Translations under genes and position numbers: made by a program | NCBI GenBank assembly: GCA_020161575.1 | Contig: JAIUNR010000007.1 | Span: forward strand, 124,001 to 188,000 | Source: Pseudomonadota bacterium | Lineage (GTDB): Bacteria > Pseudomonadota > Alphaproteobacteria > Rhizobiales > Beijerinckiaceae | Direction of reading: 5' to 3' | Length of the DNA stretch: 64,000 nt | Shown: positions 6,586 through 36,166 of the stretch, piece by piece | Position numbering within the stretch: the stretch's first letter is position 1 | How the letters are laid out: each line of letters begins with the position of its first letter | The notes under the pieces: generated by a model | Database searches by the model: none | Told to the model about the DNA's origin: nothing | What the model saw: only the letters and a program-made list of their open reading frames with translations

Positions 6586-7947
6586 ATGAGCACGCCGAGC
6601 AGCCAGCCGCCTGCGCGCTTCACGCAGGGTTCCACCTTTCGTCATGTTGTCGAGATGACCGTGACAGGCGCGATCGGCCTCATCGCGATCTTCTTCGTGG
6701 ATTTTCTCTCGCTCTATTACATCTCCTTGATGGGGAACGATCAGCTCACGGCAGGGGTCGGCTATGCGACCAATGTGCTCTTCCTCGCGATCTCGGTGAA
6801 TATCGGCGCGATGATCGCCGGTACCGCGCTGCTTTCACGCGCCCTCGGCGCTGGAAAAAGGGAGGATGCCCGGCGTATCGTTGCATCGGGGCTTGCCATC
6901 TCCATTGCCCTTGGCGTGCTCGTCTCGATCGCCCTGCTGGCCAGCATCGATGTGATTCTTGAGAAGATCGGCGCAGAAGGCACGCCGCGTGATGTCGCCC
7001 GCCGCTTCCTCTGGATCGTCCTGCCTTCGACCGTCTTCATGTCTGCCGGCATGATGCTCTCGGGCTATCTGCGCGGCGTGGGCGATGCCAAGCGGGCCAT
7101 GTCCGTTACACTGATCGGGGGGATCGTCACGGCTTTCACGGATCCATTGCTGATCTTCACGCTCAAGCTCGGCACCGACGGCGCCGCGATCGCCACCGTG
7201 ATCTCGCGCATTGTCTTCACGCTGGTGGGGCTGAACGGGATCGTGAGGGTTCACAAGCTCGCGGAAATGCCAAGCCTGGCGGGCATTCGAAAAGATTTCC
7301 AACCCTTCTTCGCAATCGCTTTCCCCGCGATCCTCACCAATATCGCCACGCCCATCGGTGTGCTGATCTTCGTGAGCATTCTCGCGCCCTTTGGTGCGGA
7401 GGCGATCGCTGCCTCGGCGATCATCGACCGATTGATCCCCTTGGTTTTTGGGCTCGTCTTCGCGCTTTCGGCTTCTATCGGCGCGATTCTCGGCCAGAAC
7501 CTTGGCGCGAGGCAATTCGGCCGTGTTCGGCAGGCGATGCGCGACGCCCTGAAATTCTCGTTTCTATACACGCTGGCCGCATGGCTGCTGCTCGCGCTCT
7601 TGCGTAACCAGATCGCCGCCGCCTTCGGCATCGGCGGCCTGACGGCGCATTACCTCACCTTTTTCTGCCTGATCGGCGCGGCGGCCTGGATTTTCATCTC
7701 GCTGGTGCTGGTTGCGAACGCGGCCTTCAACAATCTCGGCTTTCCGCTCTATGCCACCGCGTTCAACTGGGGTCGCTCGACAATCGGAACCTTGCCCTTC
7801 GCCTATATCGGCGCGCTCTATTGGGGGGTGGAGGGCGCCCAGACGGGCGTGATCTTCGGCGCGGCGATCTTCGGGCTTTGGGCTGTCCATGTCTGCTTCA
7901 AAGCCATCGACAAGCTGGAGGCACGCGCCACTAGCACGGTCGGGTAA
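6586..7947 (+). CDS. MATE family efflux transporter
   Basis: Inner-membrane multidrug/toxin exporter of the MATE family, with about twelve hydrophobic segments in 453 residues. Two repeated halves are visible, with motifs typical of the family (DFLSLYYISLMGNDQLTAGV near the N terminus, GAILGQNLGARQFGRVRQAM in the second half). Cation-driven antiport is inferred from the family. Start ATG 6586 gives a short cytoplasmic N terminus; an ATG at 6574 would add four residues. The upstream part of the open frame has no hydrophobic or conserved character and was left out. Confidence 0.9.
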   Translation: MSTPSSQPPARFTQGSTFRHVVEMTVTGAIGLIAIFFVDFLSLYYISLMGNDQLTAGVGYATNVLFLAISVNIGAMIAGTALLSRALGAGKREDARRIVASGLAISIALGVLVSIALLASIDVILEKIGAEGTPRDVARRFLWIVLPSTVFMSAGMMLSGYLRGVGDAKRAMSVTLIGGIVTAFTDPLLIFTLKLGTDGAAIATVISRIVFTLVGLNGIVRVHKLAEMPSLAGIRKDFQPFFAIAFPAILTNIATPIGVLIFVSILAPFGAEAIAASAIIDRLIPLVFGLVFALSASIGAILGQNLGARQFGRVRQAMRDALKFSFLYTLAAWLLLALLRNQIAAAFGIGGLTAHYLTFFCLIGAAAWIFISLVLVANAAFNNLGFPLYATAFNWGRSTIGTLPFAYIGALYWGVEGAQTGVIFGAAIFGLWAVHVCFKAIDKLEARATSTVG

Positions 7948-8010
7948 GAGGGCATTGCGCGGTGCCATCCGCGCCGTTACCTTGGCCTGCATCGGGGCGG
8001 AGAGCAGGCG

Positions 8011-8763
8011 ATGATGAACCTTTTCGAGATCATGCAGAATGCGCAGGGCGGCAACGCCTACAACAACCTCGCGCAGCAATTCGGCATCGCGCCGGCCCAG
8101 GCGCAGAAGGCGGTCGAAGCGGTGCTTCCCGCTTTCTCGATGGGGCTCCAGCAACAAGCCCAGACGATGGAGGGATGGAGCAACATCCTTTCCTCCCTGA
8201 GCCAGGCGGGCAAGAGCGCGGAATTCTACGATTCCGACGGTGACGGCATTCCCGACCACCTTGATAACGACGGCCAGAATGCGATGGGCGCGATGTTCGG
8301 CTCGCCCGAACTGCAATCCGCGATGGCGGGGCAGGCGGCGCAATTCGCGGGGCTTCCGGCCAATCTCATGCAGCAGATGCTGCCGGTGATCGCCTCGATG
8401 GTGCTGGGCGGGCTGTTCAAAGGCGCCCAGAATGGCGGCCTTGGCGGAATTCTCGGGCAGATGATGCCGGGAAATGCGCATGGAAATGCAGGCGGGATGG
8501 ATTTCAGCTCGATTCTCGGCGGCATGTTCGGGCAGGCGATGGCGCCACAGAATCCGGCACCGCAGGGCGGCTTTGGAGGCATGTTCGGCAATATTCTCGG
8601 CTCGCTGATGGGCGGTGGGCGCCCCGCGCCGCAAGCGGCCCCGGACCCGGTTGCGAGTGGGCTCGACATGCTCAAGGGCATGTTCGAGAGCGGCCAGCAG
8701 GCTCAATCCGCGCAGATGGATGCATTCCGGCAGGTCTTCGACCAGTTCATGCCCAAGCGCTAG
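8011..8763 (+). CDS. DUF937 domain protein with a calcium-loop-like insert
   Basis: A 250-residue protein. Residues 1-65 fit DUF937 (NLFEIMQNAQGG, a Q/A-rich helical region, AVLPAFSMGLQQQA), with the conserved LPANLMQQMLPVIASMVLGGLF further on. Between them, at residues 73-87, lies YDSDGDGIPDHLDND, an acidic loop like the calcium loops of EF-hands and thrombospondin type 3 repeats. The C-terminal part is Gly/Met/Phe-rich and repetitive. No signal peptide. ATG 8011 follows GGAGAGCAGG. Function unknown; the next gene also carries EF-hand-like DG-x-LT-xx-E elements. Confidence 0.75.
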   Translation: MMNLFEIMQNAQGGNAYNNLAQQFGIAPAQAQKAVEAVLPAFSMGLQQQAQTMEGWSNILSSLSQAGKSAEFYDSDGDGIPDHLDNDGQNAMGAMFGSPELQSAMAGQAAQFAGLPANLMQQMLPVIASMVLGGLFKGAQNGGLGGILGQMMPGNAHGNAGGMDFSSILGGMFGQAMAPQNPAPQGGFGGMFGNILGSLMGGGRPAPQAAPDPVASGLDMLKGMFESGQQAQSAQMDAFRQVFDQFMPKR

Positions 8764-8835
8764 GGTGGTAATCGCGAGCGAGAGCAGGGCCAGATCGCAT
8801 CAGCGGATGTGTGGGCTTTTGATCTCTCGCTCGTT

Positions 8836-8903
8836 CTTGCATGTGTGCAAGTACGCCTTCCTGCAAATAATGCCAGATGCATAAAATGCGACCGATTGCA
8901 TTT
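8836..8903. promoter_or_regulatory. AT-rich promoter region with two inverted repeats
   Basis: The 210 bases between the DUF937 gene and the repeat-protein gene are much richer in A/T than their surroundings. Two perfect inverted repeats are visible: arms CTTGCA/TGCAAG around TGTG (8836-8851) and AAATGC/GCATTT around 8 bases (8884-8903). The first has a TGCA-N4-TGCA core, as in TraR/LuxR-type boxes. A weak -35-like TTGCAT lies at 8896. These could be operators for the downstream gene; no regulator gene is adjacent. Confidence 0.35.
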
Positions 8904-8973
8904 GAATTATAGGTACGGCCTATTTGTAGAACCCCGGAATGCAAGCAGAAAGCTTGAGTTTTAGGGGAATAGA

Positions 8974-10923
8974 ATGGTCCTTTCAGTGACTTCGGCCGCT
9001 GCCCGCGTGCCCAGTGCCGTGATGCCGGCAACCACAGCACCCGTTGATCCCAAGGTGACGGGAAAGCCTGCAAAAGCGCTCACCAAGAAGCCGGTTCCGT
9101 CTCTTCAGGAGATGAATGCCCAGGCGTATCTCCAGCGTCAGCAGATTGGTGCCGGTCTTTACGATCGCTCGCTGACCCTGCGTGAAGGCGCCGCCGCGCT
9201 CCGTCGTCAGGATGCAATCCAGCAATTCGCGATCGAGATCCAGCAAAAGGCCGGTGGCCCGACCGAGAAGGATCTGCGTCAGCTCGCCCGCAAGCTCGAG
9301 CGGGCGGATGCCCAGATCGATCGCCTCTCGCATAACGAAAAGGGCGCCGATCTCGACAGCCTTGAAGGCATTGACGGGCGCGATCTCGATATCGTGCAGG
9401 CCAATCTCGCGGACCGCATCCGCCATGGTCTCAAGGATGGCTCGCTGACGAAGGAAGAAGGCGAGCAGCTCCTCGCGCGCCAGCAGGAACTCGCCGACGT
9501 CGAATCCAAGCTGCGTGCCTCGGACGGCAAGCTGACCGCCGGCGAGCAGAAGCAGTTGCTCGACCAGCTTCGCAAGACCGCCGACGAGATCAATCAGGCC
9601 CGCAACAATGCGACGGGTGTCAATCTGGGAACCTATGATTATGCCCAGAGCGTCACCGATCGCCAGAACGCGCTGGAAAAGCAGCTCCAGGAAGGCCTCA
9701 AGCAAGGCAGCCTGACCGCTCAGGAAGCCGAGATCGTCCGCAAGGAGTTCGAGAAGGTCGCGGAGATGAAGGCAGCCGCCCAGGCCAGCGGCAAGATCGA
9801 CTGGCGCGAGGCGACCCAGCTCTCGAGTGCGATGGATGAAGCCGAGATCAAGCTCTACGATCTTCAGCGCAATACCGCCGGCAAGCAGCTCGCCCATTCC
9901 TATGTCGATGCTTCGGCGGTCGACAAGCGCCAGGCGCAGCAGCTGGAAAGCGTCACGCGCGGGATCGATAACGGGCGCCTCACCAATGAGGAAGCCGAAG
10001 CGCTTCTGCGCGCACAGCAGCGGATCGACAATATCCAGCAGCGCCTGTCCGATGGTGGCCTCACCCGCTCGGAATATCTCAAGCTTCATATCGAGATGAA
10101 CAACTTCTCGCTGGACTTCGCGGATCAATACGGTGACCGCGAACGCTATACCGGGCTGACTCCGCCTCCGGCCGGCGGTACGCCGGGTGGCGGTTCTGCC
10201 GGTGGTACGCCGGGTGGCGGTTCTGCTGGCGGTACGCCGGGCGGTGGTTCTGCTGGCGGTACGCCGGGCGGTGGTTCTGCTGGCGGTACGCCGGGCGGTG
10301 GTTCTGCCGGTGGTACGCCGGGCGGTGGTTCTGCTGGCGGTACGCCGGGCGGTGGTTCTGCTGGCGGTACGCCGGGTGGTGGTTCTGCCGGTGGTACGCC
10401 GGGCGGTGGTTCTGCTGGCGGCACGCCAGGTGGTGGGTCTGCTGGTGGTGTGACAACACCGCCTGTGGCTGGGCCGGTTACACCGCCTGTCGCTGAGCCG
10501 GTTGCGCCGCCGCCGGTGGCCGAGGCGCCGAAGCCTGAAGACAAGCCCGAAGCGCCTGCAGTGAAGCCGGAAGCCCCGGTCTCCGCGGAGGTCGAGAATT
10601 TCACCAAGGCGAAGATCGCCTTTGATGCGATCAAGGACCGCTTCGGCGAATGGATGACGGGTATGATGCGTGAGCGCACCAACTCGGTGCGGGATGCGCA
10701 TGACAAGCTCGTGGATAAGGCGCGAGAGATGCGCGAGGAGCAAGCCGATCGCGATGTTTCGCGCCGCGACCGGCTCCGCGCTGACAAGCGCAGGGAAGAC
10801 CACGGCTCCATGCCTGAATTCGGCGCCGCCCATGCCGAGAAGGCCGCGAAAGTGGCGAGCTACGCCAGCGTCGCGGCAGCCCCGGCCAAGCCGGAGCCCA
10901 GCCTTGGCAAGAAGGTCGCCTGA
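8974..10923 (+). CDS. Large repeat protein: four pseudo-EF-hand helical repeats, ten GGTPGGGSA units, charged tail
   Basis: A 649-residue protein I cannot assign to a known function. Residues 1-50 are Ala/Pro/Lys-rich with no clear signal peptide. Residues about 57-390 hold four repeats of roughly 75-80 residues (starting near 57, 136, 229 and 317). Most consist of two helix-turn-helix halves around a DG-x-LT-xx-E turn, for example LKDGSLTKEEGEQLL and SDGKLTAGEQKQLL. Residues 401-490 are ten identical GGTPGGGSA units, then a Pro/Val/Glu linker (491-545) and a basic, helical tail. The repeats resemble those in small uncharacterised proteobacterial proteins with GxLT-xx-E elements. ATG 8974 follows AGGGGA. 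A terminator follows the stop. Confidence 0.8.
   Translation: MVLSVTSAAARVPSAVMPATTAPVDPKVTGKPAKALTKKPVPSLQEMNAQAYLQRQQIGAGLYDRSLTLREGAAALRRQDAIQQFAIEIQQKAGGPTEKDLRQLARKLERADAQIDRLSHNEKGADLDSLEGIDGRDLDIVQANLADRIRHGLKDGSLTKEEGEQLLARQQELADVESKLRASDGKLTAGEQKQLLDQLRKTADEINQARNNATGVNLGTYDYAQSVTDRQNALEKQLQEGLKQGSLTAQEAEIVRKEFEKVAEMKAAAQASGKIDWREATQLSSAMDEAEIKLYDLQRNTAGKQLAHSYVDASAVDKRQAQQLESVTRGIDNGRLTNEEAEALLRAQQRIDNIQQRLSDGGLTRSEYLKLHIEMNNFSLDFADQYGDRERYTGLTPPPAGGTPGGGSAGGTPGGGSAGGTPGGGSAGGTPGGGSAGGTPGGGSAGGTPGGGSAGGTPGGGSAGGTPGGGSAGGTPGGGSAGGTPGGGSAGGVTTPPVAGPVTPPVAEPVAPPPVAEAPKPEDKPEAPAVKPEAPVSAEVENFTKAKIAFDAIKDRFGEWMTGMMRERTNSVRDAHDKLVDKAREMREEQADRDVSRRDRLRADKRREDHGSMPEFGAAHAEKAAKVASYASVAAAPAKPEPSLGKKVA
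10174..10443 (+). repeat. 27-bp minisatellite, exactly 10 copies, coding for GGTPGGGSA
   Basis: Ten head-to-tail 27-base units with no gaps, in frame within the large repeat protein. All ten encode the same nine residues GGTPGGGSA; every base difference between units is synonymous. Units 3, 4 and 7 are identical, as are 6 and 9. The junction GCC-GGT recurs at units 1/2, 5/6 and 8/9, which suggests that blocks of three to four units were duplicated. Copy number is likely to vary between strains. Confidence 0.95.
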
Positions 10924-10953
10924 CGCGGCTTTTCCACCCAATCAGAAATCAGG

Positions 10954-10985
10954 AGCCGGGCAGCAATGCCCGGCTTCTTCTGTTT
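10954..10985 (+). terminator. Rho-independent terminator after the repeat-protein gene
   Basis: Nine-bp perfect stem AGCCGGGCA (10954-10962) and TGCCCGGCT (10967-10975) with a GCAA tetraloop, followed by the T-rich tail TCTTCTGTTT. It begins 30 bases after the stop codon. Confidence 0.85.
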
Positions 10986-11011
10986 CCGGCGATGCCGTGC
11001 GTATGAGGGTG

Positions 11012-11047
11012 AGCATAAAGAAAAGCCGGACCTTCAAGGCCCGGCTT
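11012..11047 (-). terminator. Terminator for the DUF1127 gene
   Basis: On the minus strand AAGCCGG (11047-11041) pairs with CCGGCTT (11029-11023), extended by an inner CCTT/AAGG pairing, and runs into TTTTCTTTATG. It faces the terminator at 10954-10985, so the two convergent genes each have their own. Confidence 0.75.
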
Positions 11048-11072
11048 CAGTCGATCGCAATGGAAGGCACGT

Positions 11073-11417
11073 TCAGGAATAGACAACCGGCCCGGCGGAG
11101 GGGAGAGTGCCGGGCCGGCTTCTGCCAGCCGCGCCGCGGCCCGAAGGCATTGCGGGTCGGCTCGCGCTATCCTGCCGGGCGCTGGGTTGACGCTCGGCTG
11201 CGATCAAAGACAGAGTCACGGTCGGATCGCTGAGAAGAGACGTGCCGAGCGCAAGCCGGACATCGCGCCGGGTGAGGCCGATATCGTCCAGCGTGTGCTG
11301 ATCCCAATCAGCCAGGCGCATCGCCGAGCGGCGGTGCGCAAGCGCCCGGATGACGCGACGTGTCGCACTTGCGAGCGCAAGCAGCGAAACAGTCAACACG
11401 CCCGGTGCGAAGGCCAT
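11073..11417 (-). CDS. DUF1127 (YjiS-like) domain protein
   Basis: A 114-residue protein with a short hydrophobic N terminus (MAFAPGVLTVSLLALAS) and the DUF1127 core RLADWDQHTLDDIGLTRRDV near residues 33-52. The domain is short, basic and thought to bind RNA or act in regulation in alphaproteobacteria. The last 40 residues are low complexity and overlap a 10-bp inverted repeat (11087-11096 with 11109-11118). ATG 11417 is chosen because GGAGGAG is 8 bases upstream. It is divergent from the LysR gene, a frequent pairing that hints at regulation by it. Confidence 0.8.
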   Translation of the reverse strand: MAFAPGVLTVSLLALASATRRVIRALAHRRSAMRLADWDQHTLDDIGLTRRDVRLALGTSLLSDPTVTLSLIAAERQPSARQDSASRPAMPSGRGAAGRSRPGTLPSAGPVVYS

Positions 11418-11567
11418 TGGAAATCTCCTCCGGGAGAGCGCCAATGCGGTGTCTCCCGATCCGATGGTCGAAAAATAGCGATTTCCCTTGCATTAAGAAA
11501 ACGAATGTTTTTCATCTTCTCATCAAAATCATGCATTGGTTGACCGAAGGGGCACCAAGGAGGGGCG

Positions 11568-12461
11568 ATGCTGCCGGTTCTGGACAATGATCATCTGAGA
11601 ACCTTGATCGCGATCGCCGAATCCGGCTCCTTCACGCGGGCGGCGGATATCGTGAACAAGACGCAGAGCGCGGTCTCGATGCAGATCCGTCGGCTGGAAG
11701 AGCGCCTTGACCGCGAGATCTTCGTGAAAGACGGCCGCACCGCGCGTCTCACCCTGGATGGCGAGCGCCTGCTCGACTACGCCTATCGCATCATGCGCCT
11801 CAATGACGAGGCGATGGCGATGTTCCGCGAGGAGCGCCTCTCCGGCCGGGTGAAGCTTGGTGTGCCGGATGATTATGCGGAGCGTTACCTGCCGCGCATT
11901 CTCGCGCGCTTCACCGCGTCCAATCCGGGGATCGAGGTCGCGGTCATCTGCGAGCCTACCGAATATCTCGTGCCGAACCTGCAATCGTGCGAGATCGACA
12001 TGGCGATCATCACGCATTCCGACAAGCGCGGCGCAGGCGAGGTGATCCGCGAGGAGCGGCTGCTCTGGGTGGCTTCGCAACGCCATTGCACGCATGAGCA
12101 GCGTCCCTTGCCGCTTGCGCTCGGGCGAGACAATTGCAACTGGCGGCGCGCGGCGACCAGCGGGCTGGCGGAAATGGGCGTTCCCTTCCGCATTCTCTAC
12201 ACCAGCTGGAATTCGGCGGCGGTGGGCGCCGTGGTGCTGGCGGGGCTCGCGATCTCGGTCCTGCCGGAAAGCGCGATCCGTCCCGGAATGCGCGTGCTTA
12301 CCGCCGAGGATGGCTTCCCTGATCTGCCGATGGTGAAGATCGCGCTTCTGCGCAACCCCAACGCGCGCGATCACGTCGCCAACGCGCTGGCAAACCACAT
12401 CATCCAGAGTCTCGACAATCTCTCCTACGAGACTCGCGGCATGATGCTGGCGGCGGAGTAA
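11568..12461 (+). CDS. LysR family transcriptional regulator
   Basis: A 297-residue LysR-type regulator: N-terminal winged helix-turn-helix (residues about 5-65, with HLRTLIAIAESGSFTRAADIV and QSAVSMQIRRLEERL) and a substrate-binding domain (about 92-290). The ligand is unknown. The divergent DUF1127 gene shares a 150-bp intergenic region, where AAAAC-GAAT-GTTTT (11498-11511) is a candidate binding site. Its stop codon abuts the gshA stop on the other strand with no gap, and no terminator is visible between them. Confidence 0.9.
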   Translation: MLPVLDNDHLRTLIAIAESGSFTRAADIVNKTQSAVSMQIRRLEERLDREIFVKDGRTARLTLDGERLLDYAYRIMRLNDEAMAMFREERLSGRVKLGVPDDYAERYLPRILARFTASNPGIEVAVICEPTEYLVPNLQSCEIDMAIITHSDKRGAGEVIREERLLWVASQRHCTHEQRPLPLALGRDNCNWRRAATSGLAEMGVPFRILYTSWNSAAVGAVVLAGLAISVLPESAIRPGMRVLTAEDGFPDLPMVKIALLRNPNARDHVANALANHIIQSLDNLSYETRGMMLAAE

Positions 12462-35900: not shown

Positions 35901-35917
35901 CTTCTTAAGGCCATCTC

Positions 35918-36104
35918 CCGCGCGGGAGAGAACGGCTGCCATCGTGCAGCCGTCGCCGAAGGCGCAACCGCCCCGGAAACGCTCAGGCAAAAGGACCGCG
36001 CGAGAAAAGCCGCTCTGGAAAGCGATGGCTTTGGCCATCCACCGACGGAGTAAGCACGCCGCACCGCGGCTGCGAAATCTCTCAGGTTCCGTGACAGAGG
36101 GGGC
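35918..36104 (+). promoter_or_regulatory. Tandem glycine riboswitch
   Basis: Two glycine aptamers in series upstream of gcvT. The first begins at GCGGGAGAGA (35922) and includes GCCGAAGGCGCAA, AAACGCTCAGGCAAAAGGACC and closes near CTCTGGAAAG (about 36020). The second runs through CCACCGACGGAGTAAGC and AAATCTCTCAGGTTCCGTGACAGAGGGG, split by the variable stem, to about 36104. These are the conserved cores of the family. Glycine binding is expected to switch on the downstream glycine cleavage genes. The gcvT start is 62 bases further on. Confidence 0.93.
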
Positions 36105-36166
36105 AGCGCGCTCGATTTTCGGGCGGGCCAACCCTGTTGACGGAGGCGGCGCAAGCCGGAAGAGAG

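Follow-up and report, generated by a model that had tools for sequence, protein, structure and literature searches.

A four-unit helical protein of Rhabdaerophilum and its kin, and its small relatives across Pseudomonadota

The gene at 8974..10923 (+ strand, stop included) encodes a helical protein of 649 amino acids; coordinates refer to the window, the whole 64,000-nucleotide stretch analysed, which lies on contig 7 of a 3.19 Mb genome. The protein has a body of four tandem units, a disordered linker and a long C-terminal helix, lacks an export signal and is related to a wider family of mostly small proteins; all of these features are computed. It may serve as an intracellular multivalent scaffold or adaptor, a preferred but tentative reading in which location, clustering and binding are what we infer.

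Gene and conservation

The open reading frame described in an earlier note on this DNA is present, with an ATG start and 649 codons before the stop. The antisense strand of 8974-10923 is also open (652 codons). The forward frame is taken as the coding one because 12 orthologues share 52-64% core identity with the window protein and because substitutions are commonest at the third codon position in 12/12 core comparisons (third position 170-188, first 89-126, second 72-104, over 341-342 codons). The gene is thus genuine and conserved as a protein. Among its 13 sequences, 93 columns are invariant in the core, one in the linker (P398) and one in the last 98 residues (K647). No paralogue of the core, unit or tail is found in the same genome at E<=10.

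The protein was initially described as unassigned, and it has no whole-length match to a characterised family: no Pfam, NCBIfam or PHROG model, enzyme families included, reaches its cut-off (best PHROG E 0.013), and the best match among PDB sequences has E 0.098. A fold search of the PDB gives 163 matches up to E 10, the best at E 0.11; none is found at E 0.001, so no scaffold homologue backs a scaffold role. BFVD gives no fold match at E<=0.001. A phage tape-measure protein was considered and rejected, as the TMP_N Pfam match is weak (17.2 bits, cut-off 27). A phage origin was likewise set aside; the TMP_N and PHROG matches are weak, and the core matches no phage or plasmid record at E<=0.01.

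Four three-helix units

Four tandem units occupy residues 50-391, as delimited by unit HMMs and an AlphaFold2 core model, which agrees with the earlier count. Two details of the earlier description do not hold. Firstly, the unit was given as 75-80 residues; the measured period is 91, 89 and 89 residues, with the first capped turn of units 1-4 at residues 68, 159, 248 and 337. Secondly, each unit was said to consist of two helix pairs; three helices are predicted per unit, joined by two capped turns. Unit 1 covers residues 50-137 (9121..9384), unit 2 residues 138-228 (9385..9657), unit 3 residues 229-317 (9658..9924) and unit 4 residues 318-391 (9925..10146), all on the + strand; the motif YDLQRN in unit 3 is invariant in the alignment.

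Unit HMMs were built from 13 sequences each; about 8,000 shuffled units served as the null, with a best score of <=13.6 bits. Over 12 directed comparisons, the HMMs score 10.2-37.2 bits against the window protein's other units and beat the best shuffled unit in nine (18.5-37.2 bits). The three comparisons under the shuffle maximum (10.2, 12.2 and 12.7 bits) are all between unit 1 and unit 3 or 4. Genus units share 22-32% identity with unit 2.

The AlphaFold2 core model, for which the alignment input included the 12 orthologues, has a mean pLDDT of 86.1 and a pTM of 0.82; the repeat is visible in it as three helices per unit, twelve in all. Two of the five core models are poor (pLDDT 62.5 and 61.7). 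In the full-length model, which is weaker (pLDDT 60.0, pTM 0.33), the twelve helices are retained.

Turns as helix caps

The DG-x-LT-xx-E turns were previously read as pseudo-EF-hands. In the core model and alignment, a conserved Thr, Asp or Asn directly precedes a predicted helix in 8/8 turns. This residue is Thr except in one turn, where it is Asp or Asn, and another, where it is Thr or Asp. The residue three positions later is Glu in 13/13 sequences in six turns, Glu or Asp in 13/13 in one, and Asp or Glu in 12/13 in the last. In a capping box, as a passage of PMC11101637 defines it, the N-cap is Asp or Thr and N3 is Glu. As modelled, the turns are capping boxes, serving to cap helices and not to bind calcium. 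The hydrophobic residue and the glycine ahead of the cap presumably correspond to a hydrophobic staple and a Schellman turn.

Positions 9-12 of an EF-hand loop carry the same helix cap, which explains the likeness. Like EF-hands and pseudo-EF-hands, the four-unit protein has D/N5, G6, hydrophobic 8 and E12 in the second loop half, followed by the exiting helix; this common part is a general capping pattern. Unlike in EF-hand proteins, no aligned turn has acidic residues at both position 1 and position 3: at each of the eight turns (window columns), position 1 or position 3 holds D, N or E in 0/13 sequences. Calcium binding by the four-unit protein is therefore unlikely, as far as the alignment can tell. 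No EF-hand profile is among the three Pfam families matching the window protein at E<=1, nor is an EF-hand model among the 25 listed of 27 Pfam families that match 37 relatives at E<=0.1. With all eight turns carrying the capping box, the EF-hand interpretation is abandoned.

A calcium sensor with degenerate EF-hands, possibly acting together with the neighbouring DUF937 protein and its calcium-site-like loop DSDGDGIPDHLD, is accordingly the least probable of the explanations considered and very improbable in itself. A majority of sequences retains D/N/E at loop position 5 and Gly at position 6 in 7/8 turns, and position 12 in 8/8; the last turn of one orthologue (L013, from the genome that also holds L025) has D3, D5, D9 and E12. 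The retained positions are, however, accounted for by helix capping, and the four-unit gene is separable from DUF937 (see below), which adds to the missing acidic pairs and the lack of a listed EF-hand model.

A unit family beyond the genus

The suggested relation to small proteobacterial proteins with one such unit is borne out. The unit profile matches 27/398 genomes in a phylum sample, three of them from the genus, leaving 24/395 outside it; it matches 23/397 genomes in an order sample (four from the genus) and 12/385 in a class sample (two from the genus), and the three samples overlap. From part of the matches outside the genus, 47 loci were taken, or 46 after removal of one duplicate. 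The genus unit profile matches 50 ORFs in the 47 loci and 0/703 reversed and 0/703 shuffled ORFs. A 37-unit alignment of the outside relatives pairs with the genus unit profile in hhalign at 99.2% (E 1.1e-19); for the whole core against the one-unit family the value is 98.3%, and the pairing falls on unit 2. By these profile comparisons, the four-unit protein is placed in an unnamed family of GxLTxxE three-helix units.

The best ORF holds one unit in 40/46 outside loci and two to four units in 6/46. The one-unit relatives are exported-looking proteins of about 103-162 amino acids, depending on the start chosen. Like the four-unit protein they have a unit with two GxLTxxE turns; they differ in their signal-like start and in a length that leaves no room for such a linker or long tail. 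No Pfam or NCBIfam name was found for them. The multi-unit relatives share the tandem arrangement (four units in L037, of 474 amino acids; three in L053, L080 and L084; two in L050 and L083) and differ, too, in having a signal-like start. The earlier note took four units in series, joined to a flexible array and a basic domain, to be undescribed; no family matches the whole protein above cut-off, but four units in series also occur in the exported-looking L037, a protein of another family. The expansion in L037 looks independent and recent because hardly any differences separate its units 2, 3 and 4, unlike the genus units.

Several database matches to family members are weak or attributed to chance. 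NCBIfam YmfL matches 10/37 members weakly (best E 9e-5; in the two cases where bits are given, 15-17 against a cut-off of 90). L037 exceeds the cut-off of Pfam CCDC-167 (34.8 against 27 bits), which is taken as a chance match of the coiled-coil type. The one-unit profile has 35 matches among PDB sequences up to E 5, homeodomains leading, which are also taken as chance; the best, at E 0.0065, is made up of two repeats scoring 10.4 bits apiece. The N-terminal part of L037 (L037:769-2193) has a weak cyanovirin-like match (E 0.22).

The family also matches two Nostoc plasmids. Four plasmid records are matched by one member; at three of these sites the annotation reads hypothetical protein, and the fourth carries no feature. 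Several of the one-unit proteins from the same order (L049, L067-L070, L072, L075 and L076) have in common a C-terminal LPR or LPRxG[RKN] segment. A literature search of partial coverage returned no title about a GxLTxxE three-helix unit family.

Export signal

Export was assessed with a simple rule of our own, not SignalP, which requires a positive n-region, an uncharged hydrophobic stretch and a small-x-small site; 74/653 control ORFs pass it. A signal-like start is found in 45/46 loci outside the genus, compared with 0/13 genus proteins from any in-frame start. The sole outside miss, L076, starts with a hydrophobic stretch but lacks a positive n-region. The window protein fails the rule from all 7 of its in-frame starts, in keeping with the earlier observation that it lacks a signal peptide. 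By plain hydrophobicity of the first ten residues it scores 1.72, near the lowest outside value of 1.75. Residues 1-49 (8974..9120, + strand) are mostly disordered in the model, with pLDDT <50 for residues 1-37; across the genus, Ser, Ala, Asn and Gln abound in the N-termini.

An unrecognised export route is possible because 45/46 of the related loci outside the genus look exported. The main rival to an intracellular scaffold is thus a surface or secreted protein that leaves by a non-Sec route, such as the flagellar export apparatus, with its disordered N-terminus as the signal and its repeats at work outside the cell, which is presumably also where the repeats of the relatives act. The disordered, Ser/Ala/Asn/Gln-rich N-termini are consistent with this, and FlhA is found in 12/13 carriers of the gene. 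FlhA does not clearly track the gene, however: it is present in 4/4 non-carriers and missing from one of the carriers, G016, whose genome (320 contigs) is estimated to be 100% complete. The neighbours MATE, DUF937, LysR and GCS2 are not flagellar either, and non-Sec export is considered unlikely. A second FlhA-like match occurs in G002 (G002:C18:584380-586350) and in G012 (G012:C27:11-1741).

Linker and C-terminal region

Residues 392-536 are predicted to be disordered (pLDDT <50 in the full-length model). Within this linker, a 27-base tandem array of 10.2 copies (10174..10449, + strand) codes for GGTPGGGSA, which confirms the spacer array proposed earlier. Orthologue linkers range from 70 to 247 amino acids and differ in composition; judged on these sequences, the array is a variable linker.

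Residues 537-607 (10582..10794, + strand) are predicted to form a single long helix in the full-length model, with a partly conserved (I/V)xDRFxExMTxxM. The tail had been described as charged and basic; residues 552-649 are charged but hardly basic, with 22 K/R against 18 D/E. The C-terminal tripeptide K-[VIA]-[AV] (10912..10920, + strand), with K647 invariant and a final A or V, is kept in 13/13 sequences despite the variable stretch before it. It could be a protease tag or a PDZ ligand.

Distribution and neighbourhood

The four-unit gene is found in 13/17 genomes of the same genus (Rhabdaerophilum and kin) and in 0/44 further relatives. Among the non-carriers, G004, G008 and G012 are near-complete and G011 is 78% complete. 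The gene is dispensable, as it is missing from the three near-complete genomes; it was also not found in G011.

The order MATE, DUF937, four-unit gene, an ORF that we take to be DUF1127-type, LysR and GCS2 is kept in 12/13 carriers. In G004, G008 and G012 the neighbour block is intact without the gene; in G007 the block also lacks it, and the four-unit gene lies on another contig. Four neighbouring proteins of 16 genomes were used for a midpoint-rooted tree. Its deep nodes are weak (49-77); G004 and G008 come out as a sister pair beside G007 (support values 100 and 95), and G012 as basal to four carriers (support 100). Were the gene ancestral, this tree and the empty sites would require that it had been lost at least twice and moved once.

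The DUF937 gene (8011..8763, + strand; PF06078, E 9.4e-18) had been suggested as a partner in a new system. It adjoins the four-unit gene in those 12 carriers but belongs to a different family with a much wider distribution (45/61 relatives, compared with 13/61 for the four-unit gene), remains present at the three sites where that gene is missing, and in G007 lies apart from it. The DUF937 gene is therefore independent of the four-unit gene and is judged not to be part of a system. Residues 74-85 of its product, DSDGDGIPDHLD, form a calcium-type Asp loop, with small changes in several orthologues; the protein also has a weak TSP_3 match. In the passages of PMC13411936 covered here, DUF937 occurs once, as PA3796 in a protein list.

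Possible function

As an intracellular scaffold, the protein would act as follows. The four three-helix units would make up a body of twelve helices, several faces of which could bind partners. The disordered linker, variable in length, would tether this body to the long C-terminal helix, which probably self-associates or binds the membrane or a partner. The body would thereby be held and clustered at a cell site. A broader claim is more doubtful than the scaffold role itself: that the GxLTxxE unit is an undescribed domain family, and that four units in series, intracellular and confined to one genus, are a new helical-repeat scaffold organising a cell site by means of tether and C-terminal helix.

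Spy and CpxP are small helical periplasmic proteins with LTxxQ motifs. The unit family could on this analogy be chaperone-like, with small periplasmic chaperones outside the genus and a cytoplasmic chaperone or stress protein within it. The relatives are small, helical, exported-looking and Arg/Lys-rich, with LTxxE turns, and the patchy presence of the gene would fit an accessory stress gene; but the likeness to Spy/CpxP comes from general background, and no such family is among the Pfam matches listed. A chaperone would be less probable than non-Sec export, though not as remote as a calcium sensor.

The scaffold reading aside, the unit profile unites a domain family spread over Pseudomonadota, along with the two Nostoc plasmids, for which no curated model was found. 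The shift from single units that look exported to a signal-free body of four is a case of an exported domain possibly re-used inside the cell. The turns illustrate how helix capping can be mistaken for a calcium-binding loop.

Flanking elements

A leader hairpin with stem CAAGC/GCTTG and loop AGAAA (8942..8956, + strand) lies upstream of a Shine-Dalgarno-like AGGGGA (8963..8968, + strand). It was aligned over 12 upstream sequences (the window and 11 orthologues; L018 was excluded for an insertion). The hairpin has five pairs and a GC-AGRAN-GC centre, with 91.7% of cells paired; its covariation score is above that of 500/500 shuffles, and the helix is also predicted independently. Two of the five pairs are changed on both sides, which 163/500 shuffles equal; 52/500 equal the pair types. 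Because of these shuffles, and because sliding by one column gives 0.315 against 0.348, the evidence for the hairpin is rated as moderate. The exact 14-base leader motif occurs once in the genome; the hairpin was rejected as a regulon mark, with four more sites at one mismatch against three for a reversed-pattern control.

Further upstream, at 8880-8910, 13 aligned sequences retain a TAAAAT-like block and, after it, a T-rich one, perhaps the promoter; a sigma-70 scan around the gene found nothing. After the gene, a hairpin resembling an intrinsic terminator (10951..10978, + strand) is one of seven such sites in 7900-11600, where 2.5 are expected. Elsewhere in the window, a tandem glycine riboswitch with two aptamers (71.1 and 46.0 bits) is located at 35913-36107.
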